A stretch of 22,419 nt of DNA from a virus, in IMG/VR virus record IMGVR_UViG_3300009514_000096, positions 1 through 22,419 of that record. One strand, given 5' to 3'. The notes beneath the pieces were generated by a model. It had not been told where the DNA came from. It saw only the letters and a list, made by a program, of their open reading frames with translations, and did no database searches. Numbering within the stretch: position 1 is the first letter of the stretch; each line of letters starts with the position of its first letter. Below, piece by piece: positions 1 through 21,941 of the stretch. The position numbers were made by a program, and so were the translations under genes.

Positions 1-3000
1 CCGACCAATGACTTGGCTATTGCCATAGTCGTACCCGATGGAGTGACGATAAGGTTTCCTAGATTGTTAACGTAGAAGTCTGAGTAAACTGTATCGGTGG
101 CGTAGGTAAGTCTAAATTGAGCTGTATTATCATTACGGAATATATCCATAGGTCTTGATGGAGTGGAAGTTGCAACACCAATAAGCCCGCTATTGAGTAT
201 CCGCATAGCTTCTGTTGCACCGTTATTTCCTACCTGGAAGATATGATCAGCTCCGGCAGCTCCGACTCCTGTAGTCGTTTTGTAGGTAAGAGTTGAAGTC
301 GTGCCTGTACCGCCAATGATGAGAGGGGTTGTGAGGGTTGTGGCTAGACCGACACCGATATTGACAGTTCCTGCAGAGCCATCCACATAGAATAAAGAAA
401 CTCCCTTCCCATCACCGATTGCGAAGTCTCTAAAGCGGGTTGTGCCGCCTAAATAACCAACACCGTTAACGCTGATGATTCGATCATCGCTATCACCAAG
501 CTGCGAGGATAATGTCACATTCCCGGCCGCACCTGATTGCCATAGATTTCCTAGTCTCGTAGACCCATTTGTTGAATCAAACAATAATTGTGAATTTGTC
601 TTTGGAGATAGTGAGCCTGTTGCGGAATTTGCAAAGAGTAGAAAACAAGTTGTGTCTGCTGATTCATCAGCAACCGTAACCGTTGCGGCATTTCCTGTGG
701 TGTTTTGGTTAAGCGTGGGGAATGTACAGTTGGCTAAGTTGCCAGAAGTCGGAGTTCCGAGAATTGGAGTGACAAGAGTTGGACTTGTATTAAACACAAC
801 CTTATCAGTTCCGGTTTCGTCTGTAAGAAGCCCTGCCAAGACAGATGAAGCAAAGGTGTTAAGGTCGTCTGCAGGATCAAGTTTGTTACGAGTGATTGCC
901 TGTCCGCTGATTGTGATGTAGTCAGGCGTTCCTGCTAGAGTAACGTCACCTGTGTTTGTGCCAGAATGAGTGCCGCCGCTAAGAGTGGTTGTGGTTCCGT
1001 CCGTTGCTGTTATCGTAGCTGATGTGGCAGGTGCGGTTAATGTAACCTTGTTGATACTTGTGGCTGTGGCAACTCCAAGAATTGGCGTAACAAGCGTCGG
1101 TGACGTATCGACAACAAACTTCGTACCAGTGCCAGTCTGGGAAGCTATAGATGTGGCATTTCCAACTGATGTGATCGGGCCTGTTAGGTTTGCGTTAGTA
1201 GCGTCATTCCCATTTAACTTCTGAATAGCCTCTAGGATTGAGTCTGTTGCTGCCACAGTTCCAGCACCTGAGACGTATCCGGTGAGAACCTTCGCAATTA
1301 CAGGTGCGTTTGTGAGGGTGGTTGCGTTGCCTACCGAGGTAACATCACCTGTCAGATTAGCGTTTGTAATCACTGTGGCTGCAAACGACCCCGTTCCTGA
1401 ACCTGTAACGCCTCCAGTAAGCGTAATGGTCTGATCACCTGAGTTTGTACCAGTTAAGCCCAAGTCAGTTTTGAGGGTTGCCAAAGTATTTACTTCCGGA
1501 ACACCCGTTCCTGCTGTCTTGCGGTAAATAAGACTCGATGTGGTCATGTCTGCCATCTTTGCAAGTGTCACTACGCCGTTTGCGATCGTTGTGACATTGG
1601 AATCAATGGGTCTTGTGACATCGCCTGTATACGCAAACGGAAGTGCGGTTAATACCTCAACATTCCCCGTTGCTGCTGTGGCGCGACCTAGAATAGAATC
1701 TGTGGCCATCGTTGCCATCTTTGCTAGGGTTACAGCGTTATTTGCTATCGTGGCAGCAAAAGACCCCGTACCACTTCCGGTTACATCTCCAGTAAGAGTT
1801 ATGGTTTGATCACCGCTATTTGTGCCTGTGAGACCAAGATCAGTTTTTAGTGTTGCTAGGGTATTAACCTCGGGCACACCAGTACCGGCGGTCTTACGAT
1901 AGAACACACTGCTTGTAACCACATCATCCATCTTGGCGAGGGTAACGGCTTTATTTGTAATCGTGGTAGCGTTCCCTACGGAAGTAACAGGGCCGGTAAG
2001 ATTGGCGTTGGTAGTAACATTTCCAGCGGTAAGCCCTGAAGCCGTCCCTGTGATGTTTGTCCCTACCAAAGTAGATGGAGTTCCAAGATTTGGCGTTGTG
2101 AGAGTCGGGCTTGCCTGCATGACGAAAGTGGTTCCGGTTCCGGTCTGGGACGCAACAGAGGTGGCGTTACCCACGCTCGTTATCGGGCCAGTCAGGTTGG
2201 CATTGGTTATTACTGTCGCCGCAAAGGAACCTGTACCGCTACCAGTAACTCCACCGGTGAGCGTGATTGTTTGGTCTCCGGTGTTCGTGCCGCTTGAAGT
2301 CCCTGAAAATGTACCTGATTGTGTTGCGAGCGTTCCGAGTCCGAGGGTTGTCCTTGCATCCCCAGCCGTAGCATCATCTATCAAGGAAGCCCCGAAAGTT
2401 GTGATGCCTTTTATTCGAGCAAGTTCTGTTAGAGAGGGGTAGGTTGCTACCGCCGCAGAAGCTAGGTTTTTGCTTGCATCTGTGATTACTATTTCAGAAG
2501 CTGTCAGTCCTGAAAGATTTAGCCCTGTTCCTGCTATGGAGTTACCAGTCCAAGTGGCAGCAGCTGTTCCTGTGTCTTGGTTTCCAATAAAAGAATCAGC
2601 GTTTACCTTTAACGAGCCATTACCAACTCCAGATACAAGAACTGTTCCTACTCTTGAGACATAAGCACCAGAAGTTCCCGACGGTCTAACATTGACCAAA
2701 TCTCCCGCTACAGTAGTAGAAACCCAAACCGCATCACCCGTTGAGAAAGCTGAGGTATTGATACTTGTAATCAGTCCAACGGCCATCACTTGCCCGAAAG
2801 CATTGTCGGCAATATCTTGAAATGTTACCCCCACCACCGGTAAGGTAGTTAAGCTATTAGCTTTGGCTAAGGAAATATTTGGCACATTTCCTGTTGAGCC
2901 CGAAACATACACCGGCTTACCTTTATCGATCTGCGCTCCTGAAGTATTTTTGGCTATAAAAACATTGTCTCTGACAAAAACTAAATCAGACCCCATCTCG

Positions 3001-4019
3001 TTCTGTTGCTTTAGTCTGGTGATTCCGTGGAAGGTGCTAGCGTATAGGTTCAGTGTCCCTGCGGTTGGGCTAGATGGGTCAGATGATTGGTCAACAAGGT
3101 TTATATATCCAGCCCCTGCTGTGCCCGCGACTGCTACTGCTCCTGTAGTTAATAGGTCTGTGTCGGTATCAAAAGTGAATGCAGTATCTCCCTCTAAAGT
3201 CCCGTCACCAGTCCATACACCGACTTGGTTATCTACAGGAGTCCCGACTTTGGTGACGTATCCAGATAGGTCTTGATCGCCCGTGTTCGTGCCGGAAAGA
3301 TTAGAAGCCGAGACCGTCCCGGCGATAATCATACCGGTGGCGTTCCAGTGAGCGGCCAGAGTACCGGCTATCGACACGCCGATCTCGCTTACGTCCTTGC
3401 GATAGAACCCCGTGGATTGCTCGTTGTTGAATGAGATCCCAGGGACAGAAACATTACCGTCGGGGTTGGCAAAGACTCCTGCGGCTGTGATGGATGACAA
3501 AGAGTTCCCAAAACCACCGTAGAACGTGGCGAGGTTGCCACTTTGAGACCCGGGGAATGGATTACCCCTAATCTCAAGCCCCGTGTCCGTAGCGGAGGTG
3601 ATGTTAAGGCGTAGCTTCGTGGTGGTGGTTAGGGCTGTCCCGCCGATAGAAGCGGCGTCGTTCGTCTTGTCGTAGAGAAACCCGGCGTCCTCTCCAACGA
3701 CCCCGTTGTCGTCGAATAGGACACGTTTATCCGTTCCACCGGTGATCGGAGTCGTGGATATGGCAAGACTTGATGCACCAATTTCTGTAACGGTTCCGGC
3801 ATCATCTTTGGTGTAAAGAGCGCTCGTCCCAGATTTGTCTTTTAGATAGAGTTTCACTCCGGTTGTAGATGGGGTTGATGGGTCAGACCCTCTTTCATAG
3901 AATAGAATGCTCTGCTTGGCTACGCGCAGATCGGAGCGCCCATCAATAGATGATTCGCCGTCAGCCCAGGCGTGAGTCGATAGAAGCAAACAAATACTTG
4001 CGACGATTCTTTTAAACAT
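1..4019 (-). CDS. Giant repeat-rich tail-fibre-like protein with signal peptide (C-terminus off the window)
   Basis: The frame is open from an ATG at 4019 to the left edge, giving at least 1339 residues with no stop. The start overlaps the stop of the upstream coiled-coil gene (TAATG). Residues 1-20 form a Sec-type signal peptide: a Lys/Arg start, a hydrophobic core and a cleavage-like AWA before DGES. The rest is low in Cys and charge and rich in Gly, Thr, Ser, Asn and Val. Residues 50-75 have the 'LYLKDKSG...LYTKDDAGT' style seen at phage fibre N-termini. Residues about 355-465 look like a beta-rich fibre domain (GKPVYVSGSTG, GDAVWVS). After that come repeats of 'NLTGxVTSVGNAT', 'GTNSGDQTITLTG' and 'SPTLVTPILGTP' type, common in phage fibres. 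A C-terminal chaperone such as Peptidase S74 may lie beyond the window. A signal peptide is not expected on an ordinary virion fibre. Fibre-like nature is fairly sure; role and localisation are not. Confidence 0.85.
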   Translation of the reverse strand, partial: MFKRIVASICLLLSTHAWADGESSIDGRSDLRVAKQSILFYERGSDPSTPSTTGVKLYLKDKSGTSALYTKDDAGTVTEIGASSLAISTTPITGGTDKRVLFDDNGVVGEDAGFLYDKTNDAASIGGTALTTTTKLRLNITSATDTGLEIRGNPFPGSQSGNLATFYGGFGNSLSSITAAGVFANPDGNVSVPGISFNNEQSTGFYRKDVSEIGVSIAGTLAAHWNATGMIIAGTVSASNLSGTNTGDQDLSGYVTKVGTPVDNQVGVWTGDGTLEGDTAFTFDTDTDLLTTGAVAVAGTAGAGYINLVDQSSDPSSPTAGTLNLYASTFHGITRLKQQNEMGSDLVFVRDNVFIAKNTSGAQIDKGKPVYVSGSTGNVPNISLAKANSLTTLPVVGVTFQDIADNAFGQVMAVGLITSINTSAFSTGDAVWVSTTVAGDLVNVRPSGTSGAYVSRVGTVLVSGVGNGSLKVNADSFIGNQDTGTAAATWTGNSIAGTGLNLSGLTASEIVITDASKNLASAAVATYPSLTELARIKGITTFGASLIDDATAGDARTTLGLGTLATQSGTFSGTSSGTNTGDQTITLTGGVTGSGTGSFAATVITNANLTGPITSVGNATSVASQTGTGTTFVMQASPTLTTPNLGTPSTLVGTNITGTASGLTAGNVTTNANLTGPVTSVGNATTITNKAVTLAKMDDVVTSSVFYRKTAGTGVPEVNTLATLKTDLGLTGTNSGDQTITLTGDVTGSGTGSFAATIANNAVTLAKMATMATDSILGRATAATGNVEVLTALPFAYTGDVTRPIDSNVTTIANGVVTLAKMADMTTSSLIYRKTAGTGVPEVNTLATLKTDLGLTGTNSGDQTITLTGGVTGSGTGSFAATVITNANLTGDVTSVGNATTLTNAPVIAKVLTGYVSGAGTVAATDSILEAIQKLNGNDATNANLTGPITSVGNATSIASQTGTGTKFVVDTSPTLVTPILGVATATSINKVTLTAPATSATITATDGTTTTLSGGTHSGTNTGDVTLAGTPDYITISGQAITRNKLDPADDLNTFASSVLAGLLTDETGTDKVVFNTSPTLVTPILGTPTSGNLANCTFPTLNQNTTGNAATVTVADESADTTCFLLFANSATGSLSPKTNSQLLFDSTNGSTRLGNLWQSGAAGNVTLSSQLGDSDDRIISVNGVGYLGGTTRFRDFAIGDGKGVSLFYVDGSAGTVNIGVGLATTLTTPLIIGGTGTTSTLTYKTTTGVGAAGADHIFQVGNNGATEAMRILNSGLIGVATSTPSRPMDIFRNDNTAQFRLTYATDTVYSDFYVNNLGNLIVTPSGTTMAIAKSLV
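1374..1571 (-). repeat. Fibre repeat unit, copy B (198 nt)
   Basis: This 66-codon block encodes VTLAKM, then TSSLIYRKTAGTGVPEVNT and LATLKTDLGLTGTNSGDQT, ending in GSGTGSFAAT. It lies exactly 375 nt from copy A at 1749-1946. The proteins are nearly identical while many third codon positions differ, so the duplication is old and held at protein level. Confidence 0.8.
1749..1946 (-). repeat. Fibre repeat unit, copy A (198 nt)
   Basis: Partner of the 1374-1571 block in the same frame, with a 375-nt period (125 residues). A third, partial copy covering only the GTNTGDQTITLTG to GTGSFAAT segment lies at about 2214-2291. Such modular repeats lengthen fibre shafts and recombine easily. Confidence 0.8.
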
Positions 4020-18914: not shown

Positions 18915-19018
18915 CAGAAACCCACCGGGATCATGTCGTGCTTTACGATCTCGTAATAAATCCAGCCACTGACCAAGACAATCAAAACTACATACGCCAA
19001 GATCATCCAGTTCTTCAC
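18914..19018 (-). CDS. Single-span membrane microprotein, 34 aa
   Basis: A GTG start overlaps the upstream stop as GTGA and the TGA overlaps the next ATG, so it fills the gap exactly. The protein MKNWMILAYVVLIVLVSGWI is one hydrophobic helix followed by YYEIVKHDMIPVGF. Small size and one span could fit a holin-type or inner-membrane spanin part, but no lysin is nearby. Coding status rests on tiling and hydrophobicity. Confidence 0.55.
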   Translation of the reverse strand: MKNWMILAYVVLIVLVSGWIYYEIVKHDMIPVGF

Positions 19019-19650
19019 GCTTTTTCTACGGCCTCGACCCACTTGCTTTTTACCGAAGCGTACTTGACGCCGGCGTGCTCGAACTGCGTTCCTTCGATCG
19101 CGCCGTTTTTCAAGCGCGTGATGACGATGTAATCACCCGGCGAGACTTCGTATCGGTACTCCGGCCCGACAGCCACGACCTTCGCCCGGACGTCTCCGAT
19201 GGTTGCCTTGTCGCGGTCGGCGATCAGGAAGATGCTTGAGCCTTCAACGGTTGACTGGTATTCGAGCTCCACGATTACGCGGTCCGCCGGCGCCCGGAGA
19301 GTATCATCGGCACCCAGAGCAGCTTCGACCCATTCGTTGTGGATAAAATAGTGAACTTTGCCCTGTAAGGTCGCCCGATTGACTGGCCTTGCCATCCCCC
19401 TGAACGGCCACATAATATCGCCAGGGCGAGCCCAATATGTGCCCAAACAGGGCTTCCTGAATGACCTGTCCATGAACTCCGGACCGACCTTCACGACTTT
19501 GACCTTCTCGATCTTCGGGTTCTTCTTCATGTCCTTGACCACGATGAGCCCGGATTCGGTCTCGTACTGCCCGAGGATGGGCAGGCAAAGCAACTGACCC
19601 GGCAGCGGATGAACGTCGTTTATCGTGAGACCAATCATTTCAGCTTGCAT
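19015..19650 (-). CDS. Tandem double GroES-like (Cpn10) protein, 211 aa
   Basis: The second half (about 118-208) reads like a GroES domain: 'PADRVIVELEY', a mobile-loop-like section ending in SIFLIADRDKATIGDVRAKVVAVGPE, then 'VSPGDYIVITRLKNGAIEG' and 'GVKYASVKSKWVEAV'. The first half (about 15-110) repeats this more loosely: 'PLPGQLLCLPIL', SGLIVVKDMKKNPKIEKVKVVKVGPE, 'ARPGDIMWPF', 'KVHYFIHNEWVEAAL'. GroES is the lid of GroEL; phages such as T4 encode their own version (gp31) for capsid folding. A fused pair is unusual. The ATG at 19650 has GGAGG. A role in folding a phage protein with host GroEL is inferred. Confidence 0.8.
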   Translation of the reverse strand: MQAEMIGLTINDVHPLPGQLLCLPILGQYETESGLIVVKDMKKNPKIEKVKVVKVGPEFMDRSFRKPCLGTYWARPGDIMWPFRGMARPVNRATLQGKVHYFIHNEWVEAALGADDTLRAPADRVIVELEYQSTVEGSSIFLIADRDKATIGDVRAKVVAVGPEYRYEVSPGDYIVITRLKNGAIEGTQFEHAGVKYASVKSKWVEAVEKA

Positions 19651-19743: not shown

Positions 19744-19999
19744 AACCTTTTTTCATAACTCCCTCACCAAGCAGATGTTGGACAGCGTTCAACCGTTCTT
19801 CCTTGATACGCGCAATATTCCTCTCGCTCTGTGGGAACTGACGTGCAAGCTCAGTGTCATAGTGGTCTAGGATTTCTGACAGCTTGTCTCTCATGTCGAT
19901 GGCTCTCTTGTCTCCAAGAGCTTCTTTAGCAACCTGGTAATCCGTCACCTGGCTTGCATAATAATTGAGAGCAGTCCTTAGCTTCTCAACCTCAGTCAT
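19736..19999 (-). CDS. Small helical protein, 87 aa
   Basis: The ATG at 19999 overlaps the NinG-like stop as ATGA and has GGAG at good spacing. The protein is mostly helical and charged (MTEVEKLRTALNYYASQVTDYQ; DKRAIDMRDKLSEILDHYDTELARQ). No known motif, no signal peptide. Unknown function. Confidence 0.75.
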   Translation of the reverse strand: MTEVEKLRTALNYYASQVTDYQVAKEALGDKRAIDMRDKLSEILDHYDTELARQFPQSERNIARIKEERLNAVQHLLGEGVMKKGCE

Positions 20000-20484
20000 G
20001 GCTTCTCCAACAATTCCACTTTTTGTTTATAAATCTCGATCATCGACCAATATTCAACAAGACCCCACGCCGGCGATTTGATACTTCTCTGCAACGAAAG
20101 ACGGGTCAAGACTTCCGGTCCGAGACGCCGAACAATCCCGATCGTATAACCTTGCCGGTTGCCTTCTTGGAACGTGTTACAAGTTGTGCACTGGGAATGC
20201 ACGTTGTCTTCGTTGAAACGCATGGAGTTCTGAGGACAAACACTGACCGGCCAGTAGTGACCAGCCTGGGTTCCGCGTCTTACGCCACATGAAATACACA
20301 TCTCGTTTTTGTCGCGCAGACGAATGAATTTATTGAATATGGTTGTCAGATTCCTTTTGGCTGTCTTGCGCGGATCTGATTTGGCGCGGGCCAGCTTTTT
20401 TTCAGCGGCGGTCTTAGGTTTGCGCTTTAGCCAGGACCGACGAAGCGGCTTGCGGCGCGCGATCACTTTTTCTTCTCCATGCAT
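19996..20484 (-). CDS. NinG-like HNH family protein, 162 aa
   Basis: Resembles the lambda NinG/Rap family: a basic N-terminus with repeated Lys/Arg, then Cys63-x2-Cys66 (MCISCG), AGHYWPVS (about 74-81), 'RFNEDNVHSQCTTCN' (about 89-103) and a helical C-terminus ending in WSMIEIYKQKVELL. The Cys pairs and the H/N residues fit the treble-clef zinc/HNH fold. Lambda Rap is a Holliday-junction nuclease aiding Red recombination. I chose the ATG at 20484 over a TTG two codons upstream. It overlaps the small gene before it by 22 nt. Confidence 0.85.
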   Translation of the reverse strand: MHGEEKVIARRKPLRRSWLKRKPKTAAEKKLARAKSDPRKTAKRNLTTIFNKFIRLRDKNEMCISCGVRRGTQAGHYWPVSVCPQNSMRFNEDNVHSQCTTCNTFQEGNRQGYTIGIVRRLGPEVLTRLSLQRSIKSPAWGLVEYWSMIEIYKQKVELLEKP

Positions 20485-20594
20485 TTCCAATCTTTCGCGT
20501 GTTTCATAAATTCGTGGTAGTCATCGGTTCTAAAGCCACAGGCACAGCGCCATCTACCGCTTGGTGTGTTGGTTTTTTTGGAAAGATTATTCAA
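20463..20594 (-). CDS. Cys/His microprotein, 43 aa
   Basis: A TTG start follows the preceding TAA directly (TAATTG), with GGAGG at good distance. Cys17-x-Cys19 (RWRCACGF), His27, His32 and Cys38 (DWKCMEKKK) suggest a small zinc-binding unit; 'GFRTDDYHEFMKHAKDWKC' is helix-like. The C-terminus overlaps the NinG-like gene by 22 nt in another frame. Support comes from SD, tiling and composition. Confidence 0.55.
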   Translation of the reverse strand: MNNLSKKTNTPSGRWRCACGFRTDDYHEFMKHAKDWKCMEKKK

Positions 20595-20795
20595 TTAACC
20601 TTCCTCCCCTGGTTCTCGATGAACTGTGATTTTTATTTCCGGTTCAGGCACATCGTCCTGCGCGGTCTTGATTTTAGATTCGATTATGGATTTGCAATGC
20701 TCACATAGAAATTGATTCTTATAGATCCAAAGAAGAGTCTTTGCATCAAACTGGAGATCACGCTTCGAGCAAAGGAAACAGATTCGGTCAGCCAT
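20595..20795 (-). CDS. Zinc-ribbon protein, 66 aa
   Basis: Two Cys pairs, Cys6-x2-Cys9 (CFLC) and Cys31-x2-Cys34 (CEHC), frame a 21-residue segment, as in zinc ribbons. The tail is charged (IKITVHREPGEEG). The ATG at 20795 overlaps the upstream stop by 8 nt. SD is weak, but coupling is plausible. Probably a DNA- or protein-binding accessory beside the replication genes. Confidence 0.75.
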   Translation of the reverse strand: MADRICFLCSKRDLQFDAKTLLWIYKNQFLCEHCKSIIESKIKTAQDDVPEPEIKITVHREPGEEG

Positions 20796-21396
20796 TCGTT
20801 GCTCGGTACACCGCAACCGCCATCATATCTTTGATTTTCTTGTCGTTTTTTATCGAGTCCATGAGTCTTTTGAACTCAACTTCGTTCGCTTCGGAGTCAA
20901 TTTTGTGCTTCAAACGGGTTGCGATTAGGGTTTTAATGACCTTTTCTTGGGGTTTTTTAAATAGACCTTCTTTTACGGTTTGGTTTGGTACGGTTTGGTA
21001 TGGTTGGGTATGGTTGGGTATGGTATGACGAGAATCAGCCCCCAATTCTCCGAGATTTGTTCCCCGATTCATGGTTCTTTTCTTATATTCAATGCGCTTT
21101 TTCACCAAATCTCCGCAAAAATGAAGCCAATCATGGACCTTCATTCCGTCCAAAAATTCGCACGTTTGAAGCAATTTTATTAACTTCTTTGGGTCGTCCT
21201 TCCAGAACACAGACTCCGCTATAAACTTGACCGGATAACGCCTTAAATCGCCGTCCTTCCAAGCGTTTTTAAGCGTGAAATGCCATAGTAGGTGTAATGT
21301 TCCGATTATCTCCGGAACGCTTTTTCCGCTCAGTTCCACAAATTTTTGCGTCTTCCAATGCGCTGCGAGCTCTTCGTGCGATTCTATCCACGCCAT
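20788..21396 (-). CDS. Putative replisome-organiser/replication protein with internal iterons, 202 aa
   Basis: Residues 1-105 form a winged-helix-like domain starting MAWIESHEELAAHWK, with 'VPEIIGTLHLLWHF', 'GDLRRYPVKFIAESVFW', 'KKLIKLLQTCEFLDG' and 'VHDWLHFCGDLVKKRIEYKKR'. This domain is shared with the next gene upstream. A linker (about 122-141: TIPNHTQPYQTVPNQTVK) is encoded by 10-nt repeats. The C-terminal helical part (145-202) is charged. The layout (DNA-binding N-terminus, repeat linker, C-terminal loader-binding part) matches phage initiators such as lambda O, where the origin lies inside the gene. The ATG at 21396 overlaps the previous stop (TGATG). Initiator role is inferred. Confidence 0.75.
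   Translation of the reverse strand: MAWIESHEELAAHWKTQKFVELSGKSVPEIIGTLHLLWHFTLKNAWKDGDLRRYPVKFIAESVFWKDDPKKLIKLLQTCEFLDGMKVHDWLHFCGDLVKKRIEYKKRTMNRGTNLGELGADSRHTIPNHTQPYQTVPNQTVKEGLFKKPQEKVIKTLIATRLKHKIDSEANEVEFKRLMDSIKNDKKIKDMMAVAVYRATNG
20975..21026. repeat. 10-nt iteron array inside the replication gene (possible origin)
   Basis: Four direct 10-nt units on the plus strand, TGGTTTGGTA, CGGTTTGGTA, TGGTTGGGTA and TGGTTGGGTA (20981-21020), flanked by partial units. The period equals about one helical turn. An AT-rich run with GGGGTTTTTTAAATAG lies next to it at 20949-20964. This looks like an initiator-binding array and unwinding element. Confidence 0.65.
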
Positions 21397-21941
21397 CAGC
21401 GCGCCCACTTTCTTGAGTTACAAGGCCTGCAAGCAACGCGTAAATTTGTTTCTGCGTGTACGCCGCCACGGGCGAGTGGTATTACATGGTCCAGCGTTAC
21501 TTCTTTTGATTTAAGAGGAGAGAGGCATAGATAGCAGGTGCTTTTATCGCGTAGAATGATGACCTGCCTGTTTACTTTTTCGATGGTGGCTTTTTTGAGT
21601 CGAGCCCGATACTTGGACCGCTCGTTACAGGCCGCGTGTCTTCTTTTTACGCTAGCCAATCCAATCTTCGACCAGTCATTTATCTGCATGTTTTTGGTCA
21701 GCCATCCGGTCTTTTTGAGGGCTTTTATGAGTTTGTCCGGCTTGCCATTCCAGTCGCAGGCATCAGCAATATCTTTATGGAATAAACCTGATAGGTCGCC
21801 ATTTTCGCGGTTGTCGAGCGCCCACCACCAAAGCATATGAAGATGGCCAATAGCCGCGGCCCGTGAGACTCCAAGCAATTCGCATAGCGGTTTCAATTTC
21901 TTGTGCGTTCTAAGTGTTGAATGTGATTCAATCCAGGCCAT
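21396..21941 (-). CDS. Winged-helix-like domain fused to HNH endonuclease, 181 aa
   Basis: Residues 1-105 are a paralogue of the next gene's N-terminus (MAWIESHSTLRTHKKL; 'GHLHMLWWWALDNRENGDL'; 'KLIKALKKTGWL'; 'INDWSKIGLASVKRR'). Residues about 130-181 are an HNH nuclease: Cys136-x2-Cys139 (CYLC), LDHVIPLARGG (Asp151-His152), Asn166 and CRPCNSRK (171-178), all key residues present. The ATG at 21941 has GGAG 7 nt upstream, which directly follows a terminator T-run; the frame upstream of it lies in that terminator. May be a nicking or homing-type enzyme directed by the same DNA-binding domain as the initiator (inference). Confidence 0.85.
   Translation of the reverse strand: MAWIESHSTLRTHKKLKPLCELLGVSRAAAIGHLHMLWWWALDNRENGDLSGLFHKDIADACDWNGKPDKLIKALKKTGWLTKNMQINDWSKIGLASVKRRHAACNERSKYRARLKKATIEKVNRQVIILRDKSTCYLCLSPLKSKEVTLDHVIPLARGGVHAETNLRVACRPCNSRKWAR

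Follow-up and report, generated by a model that had tools for sequence, protein, structure and literature searches.

A phage gene that couples a replication-initiator DNA-binding domain to an HNH domain next to an initiator gene, a candidate origin-directed nuclease

The closest described system is Odn of vibriophage ICP1, in which a T5orf172 nuclease is joined to a domain resembling the initiator RepA of a satellite; according to the accessible part of the report, Odn cuts the satellite's origin, and the iterons are required (PMC8263062). Odn-like nucleases of the same T5orf172/RepA_N composition were predicted for ICP1 gp5 and for coliphages, and the available sections of that paper do not describe an HNH nuclease on a phage initiator domain or inside an initiator gene (PMC10448857). 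HNH endonucleases of the ShiLan type are inserted in phage methylase genes without a detectable intron or intein, are distributed sporadically, and were inferred to home, as stated in the accessible text (PMC11855218). In the RepA_N protein Rep of pSK41, the N-terminal winged-helix domain binds boxes in its own gene, and the origin encodes the central linker, as given in the available portion of the source (PMC5703833). A literature search, from which subscription journals were mostly absent, found no description of an HNH nuclease fused to the domain of a phage initiator.

The window, which is the whole stretch of DNA analysed here, is a virus record of 22,419 bases classed as linear, and its minus strand carries tail-fibre-like, head, portal, and terminase genes. 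Two genes, A upstream of B, are located at its right end on the minus strand, with the following features.

21396..21941, minus strand: gene A, 181 aa, ATG at 21941; phage-initiator DNA-binding domain plus predicted HNH nuclease
Parts of gene A product: initiator-type DNA-binding domain, residues 1 to about 90; long helix, 90-131; HNH domain, about 132-181
20788..21396, minus strand: gene B, 202 aa, predicted phage replication initiator; ATG at 21396 inside the stop codon of A
Parts of gene B product: binding domain, residues 1-115; disordered linker, about 116-150; helical C-terminal tail, 151-201
21394..21398, minus strand: TGATG stop/start overlap of A and B, read from the sequence
20977..21024, minus strand: ten tandem ACCNN pentamers (putative iterons) within the linker-coding stretch of B
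20595..20816, minus strand: cysteine-rich ORF, 73 aa, overlapping the end of B; zinc-finger-like matches, weak only

The first-pass annotation had placed two genes with a shared N-terminal domain at 20788-21941. Both were found there on the minus strand, and their N termini were 41% identical over 102 residues (E 9e-18), with domain identity ranging overall from 39 to 41%. The sequence GGAG, read by eye, lies six bases 5' of the ATG of gene A, and the TGATG overlap is consistent with translational coupling of the two genes. Overlaps of this kind were also seen at loci L147 (TAATG), L219, L083, and L003. Both proteins matched PHROG 9474, "replication initiation protein" (A, E 5e-28 over residues 11-127 of a longer ORF; B, E 2e-20); the MAWIESH-type N-terminal domain of this family is present in both, and its repeat linker and C-terminal tail in B alone. 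The C terminus of gene A matched Pfam HNH_5 and HNH, both above the curated cut-offs. Both CxxC pairs and the DH...N...CN core were present, in agreement with the earlier statement that the HNH version holds all key residues, and the HNH nuclease is intact-looking. Searches against PADLOC anti-phage defence models and NCBIfam returned only weak matches to the HNH part of A in the former and matches below cut-off to the HNH portion of IscB and Cas9 models in the latter. No close donor of the domain of A was found, the best viral-contig match having 49% identity, and a DNA-level search of isolated phages for near relatives of the A/B locus recovered a methylase stretch only.

AlphaFold models of A and B were built separately and had mean pLDDT values of 84 and 81, respectively, with residues 127-147 of B below 50. 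On the DNA-binding side, the best structure matches listed for both models were 4pql, 5kbj, and 4pt7 (Z 5.3-5.4 for residues 5-89 of A and 5.1-5.3 for residues 1-89 of B), modest scores obtained over 76-77 aligned residues at an rmsd of 2.6-3.0. Their listed titles are "N-terminal domain of DNA binding protein," "Structure of Rep-DNA complex," and "Structure of initiator," and we take them to be RepA_N plasmid initiators. The predicted folds of A and B thus resemble those of plasmid initiators. The proposal of a common initiator-type domain was upheld by PHROG 9474 and by the separately predicted structures, which are not unrelated to each other. The likeness to RepA_N initiators, such as the one described in the accessible text on pSK41 Rep, is one of fold only (Z 5.1-5.4), as neither A nor B matched the Pfam RepA_N profile at E values up to 1 (PMC5703833). 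The other half of the A model resembled HNH enzymes, with the nicking HNH 4h9d as the top match among those listed.

An iteron-like array had also been noted at 20975-21026, and ten ACCNN pentamers were indeed located at 20977-21024. The four-unit ACCNN pattern gave 7 overlapping matches in the window, all of them inside this tract, compared with 0.04 expected from shuffles. Runs of at least four ACCNN units were present in 57 of 135 initiators (non-redundant at 70% identity, at least 170 aa long, and with 150 or more bases remaining beyond the domain), compared with 9.65 expected from synonymous-codon shuffles; among eleven other triplets at the same period, the maximum was 19 (AAC). Because these shuffles keep the protein, the excess indicates that the repeat was selected as DNA and not merely as peptide, and selection at the DNA level inside an initiator gene fits an origin. 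From these sequence comparisons, the ACCNN repeats are probably a replication origin. The synonymous-shuffle test replaced a reading-frame argument for DNA-level selection, which was dropped since a 5-base period visits every frame in turn and yields one kind of peptide in any case. The linker encoded by the array is disordered in the predicted model of B, and gene B is similar to pSK41 Rep, as far as the available portion of that source goes, in having repeat boxes within the linker-coding part of its own gene (PMC5703833). No ACCNN array was found in L049 and L052. Other repeat words (GATGTCAC, CACGTGCG, GGACGTCC) occupied the same linker in L053, L069, L100, L102, L200, L088, and others, and one initiator family seems to have several iteron types.

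The relationship between the two domains was examined in a tree of 46 domains. B was placed in a starred set of eight (100/98) together with L340, L341, L343, L344, L368, L126, and L158, none of them an HNH fusion, and A was placed in a different starred set of eight (95/84). A tree forcing A and B together was rejected (p-AU 0.0148 with the 46 domains and 0.045 with an earlier 51-row set), which speaks against A as a local tandem duplicate of B. The description of the genes as tandem paralogues therefore holds in that both belong to PHROG 9474 and fails in that the trees oppose a local duplication: judged by sequence, A did not arise by duplication of B in place and comes from a different branch of the same family. 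The pair at L147, a prophage of Cohnella kolymensis, was likewise rejected when held together (p-AU 0.0025), and the question of one origin for the two tandem HNH-bearing domains (A of the window and A of L147) gave a p-AU of 0.092. Both window rows are long-branched, so their exact placement is unsure. The view that the domain of B is aberrant was dropped once the closer relatives L340-L345 turned up. L340, L343, L344, and L345 have a single initiator, of the B type, and no HNH ORF in the stretch covered around it.

We then compared 173 distinct MAWIESH-type binding domains, pooled from several scans with the window and Harrison included, each viral scan contributing its best loci up to 80. 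An in-frame HNH was found in 7 of these listed family members, and 166 were without it. Two of the seven are tandem fusions, namely, gene A and L147 (identical to L162); one, L109, is a short fusion with no second initiator in the stretch examined; and in four (L049, L052, L072, and L122) the HNH lies between the binding domain and the remainder of one initiator. Among the 173 listed, only the window, L147, and their copies had two different domains side by side. L147 has the same layout as the window: its downstream initiator gene holds an ACCNN array, and the next gene, read from its translation, encodes a DnaB-type helicase. The DH, N, and CxxC pairs were kept in gene A, in the fusions of L147, L083 (two), and L219, and in seven in-gene HNHs of a second, MAR-type initiator family. 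Five HNHs of another lineage have YDH (L049, L072, and L109) or YDR (L052 and L122), the first catalytic histidine being lost in two of the four in-gene MAWIESH HNHs.

These counts bear on whether A aids replication of its own phage, by nicking the origin or as a second initiator-like regulator. The operon-like overlap of A with initiator B, the presence of an HNH inside four MAWIESH and seven MAR-type initiators, and the predicted match of the HNH fold to the nicking enzyme 4h9d agree with such a function. However, most listed relatives are without an in-frame HNH, the domains of A and B are from different branches, and the loss of a catalytic residue tolerated in two full-length initiators (L052 and L122) speaks against a needed role in replication, so that we regard this explanation as distinctly improbable. 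Of the three roles suggested in the first-pass annotation, nicking at the phage's own origin is therefore disfavoured by the scarcity of HNH-bearing relatives and the missing histidines, whereas the recurrent, sporadic occurrence of the fusions, the separate branches to which A and B belong, and the precedent of Odn in the literature speak for cutting of a rival's origin and for homing.

HNH genes were found in front of several initiators. In the window, L147, L219, L003, and L085, an HNH domain ends within 60 bases of the initiator start. Within 600 bp, an HNH was encoded upstream of 13 of 127 initiators, the window among them, compared with downstream of 2 of 121 (Fisher p 0.006; three HNH-fused rows were excluded as anchors). 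Two HNH genes lie directly 5' of the MAWIESH initiator of L083, and their N-terminal domains matched PHROG 16167 (E 2e-37) and PHROG 2447 (E 2e-13), both "replication initiation protein" and neither the family of the neighbour. In its sister L068, which has no HNH upstream, DNA homology with L083 begins at the initiator start codon. The HNH directly upstream of the L219 initiator has another N-terminal domain, for which no initiator PHROG appeared in the best 25 of 36 matches. The HNH profile also picks up a second HNH-like type, for example in Paenibacillus phage Harrison. Small genes of this second family gave 22 matches within 1 kb upstream of an initiator, most within 220 bases (e.g., L015 3629-3961, L016, L017, L001, L041, L077, L136, and L147 2685-2996). 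In phages of Pseudomonas and Escherichia (L014 3097-3843, L240 56-802, and L241 2480-3280), the gene directly 5' of the initiator encodes another HNH protein, in which an N-terminal HNH is followed by roughly 170 or more residues without a known function.

Gene A could also be a remnant of an HNH-bearing initiator that was displaced by a newly acquired B and then truncated. This account would explain why A and B belong to different branches, and initiators with an internal HNH exist as possible ancestors. However, truncation right after an intact HNH together with a stop/start overlap recurs in the window, L147, L219, and both genes of L083, and the cores are intact in all of these although decay is expected of remnants. 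We consider this origin very unlikely.

In the second family (MARARNIKP- or MAR-type), an in-frame HNH was present in 8 of 84 distinct ORFs, comprising 7 inside a full-length initiator and the short fusion of L083; this sample is enriched for HNH because the query itself contained one. Five candidates (L269, L289, L308, L255, and L256) had long matches to the P27 domain-HNH query but no in-frame HNH. The initiator of Pseudomonas phage P27 has an in-gene HNH and that of JBD44 does not, whereas their flanks are 99.6% identical (817 and 2,798 bases). In P27, 619 bases replace 385 bases of JBD44, an exchange of the domain-plus-HNH block only, with the left edge about eight codons into the gene and the right edge at a repeated CTGATTC tract that is identical in both phages. 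JBD94b, vB_PaeS-D14C, and LC3I3 showed JBD44-like coverage. Since the block was swapped and the CTGATTC repeats remained identical, two diverged domains serve the same repeats; from the alignment, homing with co-conversion or ordinary modular recombination could have given the exchange. PHROG 5718, annotated solely as "HNH endonuclease," spans the MAR-type domain and the HNH together (1-173 of the L083 short fusion and 1-209 of the P27 initiator), so that such fusions are already within a database family, although of a different initiator family from that in the window.

The P27/JBD44 swap has the appearance of a cassette, which raises the alternative that A is in the main a selfish gene for a homing endonuclease, residing beside an initiator, with a domain that finds HNH-less initiator alleles and harm to rivals as a by-product. 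The sporadic presence of the HNH (7 of 173 listed) next to a conserved gene, its upstream excess, its in-frame position inside the initiators of two families, with the binding domain on one side and the remaining initiator sequence on the other, and its optional nature in L083 and L068 agree with this alternative, as does the lost histidine of L052 and L122, which is as in a degenerating homing cycle. The sporadic insertion into another phage gene is shared with the ShiLan-type HNHs, which, in the accessible text, are out of frame with the host gene and not in frame with a binding domain as here (PMC11855218). In contrast, the different branches of A and B leave A unmatched to the allele of its neighbour, and near-identical MAWIESH phages with and without A were not found in our searches. 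We consider this alternative rather unlikely as the main explanation.

The preferred reading is that A is an origin-directed, homing-type nuclease analogous to Odn, and we judge the arguments for and against it to be evenly poised. The initiator-type domain would steer the HNH to ACCNN-type iterons within initiator genes, where A would cut or nick the initiator gene or origin of co-infecting or resident related elements and block their replication. Repair using the genome carrying A as template would then spread the cassette, and an initiator B of another branch may be an escape route for the origin of the carrier. Interference with rivals and homing are compatible and not mutually exclusive. 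The domains, the stop/start overlap, the iterons and their DNA-level selection, the different branches, and the repeated occurrence of the design are observations; binding, cleavage, target, and carrier protection are what we infer for A. The domains and HNH core, the initiator-like folds, and the DNA-level selection of ACCNN count for the origin-directed reading, together with the non-sister relationship of A and B, the Cohnella tandem, the fusions of L083 and L219, and the excess of upstream HNHs. The block replacement ending at the repeats in P27 and JBD44 and the Odn precedent, as far as the available text describes it, are counted in the same direction (PMC8263062). Against it count the array of the carrier, which is likewise ACCNN and poses the chief difficulty, that of self-protection, the lack of a donor closer than 49% identity in our searches, the modest Z scores (5.3-5.4), the long branch of A, and the option of ordinary recombination in P27/JBD44.

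In the part of the Odn report available, Odn and A are alike as chimeras of a nuclease and the DNA-binding domain of a replication initiator, and the RepA_N type of the Odn domain is also the best structural match predicted for the DNA-binding side of A (PMC8263062). They differ in that the nuclease is T5orf172 in Odn and HNH in A, and in that the Odn domain resembles a satellite RepA, whereas that of A is of a phage-initiator family in which the adjoining B is also placed. The overlap of gene A with gene B is a further difference from Odn (PMC8263062), and the nuclease activity of A is predicted. The ICP1 gp5 and coliphage nucleases, in the accessible sections, resemble A in that initiator-type domains were joined to homing-type nucleases repeatedly (PMC10448857). 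The recurrence of such hybrids in other phages suggests a nuclease directed at origins of replication, perhaps of viral competitors. A broader proposal is that HNH nucleases guided by initiator domains form a widespread class that arose repeatedly as phage weapons or selfish genes, in which the HNH is grafted onto domains of several initiator families, before or inside the initiator of the carrier, and reads the origins of competing phages and satellites; we offer it tentatively, with slightly more doubt than confidence. If A cuts iterons, origin mimicry would be a general phage tactic extending beyond T5orf172 nucleases and satellites through a different nuclease, the frequent exchange of initiator domains and origins among phages would have a concrete explanation, and such genes would supply nucleases whose specificity for iterons is already built in.

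Elsewhere in the window, a 211-aa protein (19015-19650) carries a GroES-like Cpn10 domain in its C-terminal half (Pfam E 1e-7), and a NinG/Rap-type junction endonuclease (19996-20490; Pfam E 3e-29) is encoded 3' of the initiator in a lambdoid-like gene order. In addition, a tail-fibre-like ORF of 1339 aa on the minus strand (3-4019), open at the end of the record, contains repeated TNTGDQTITLTG-like motifs, and the many plus-strand ORFs opposite it are its shadow.
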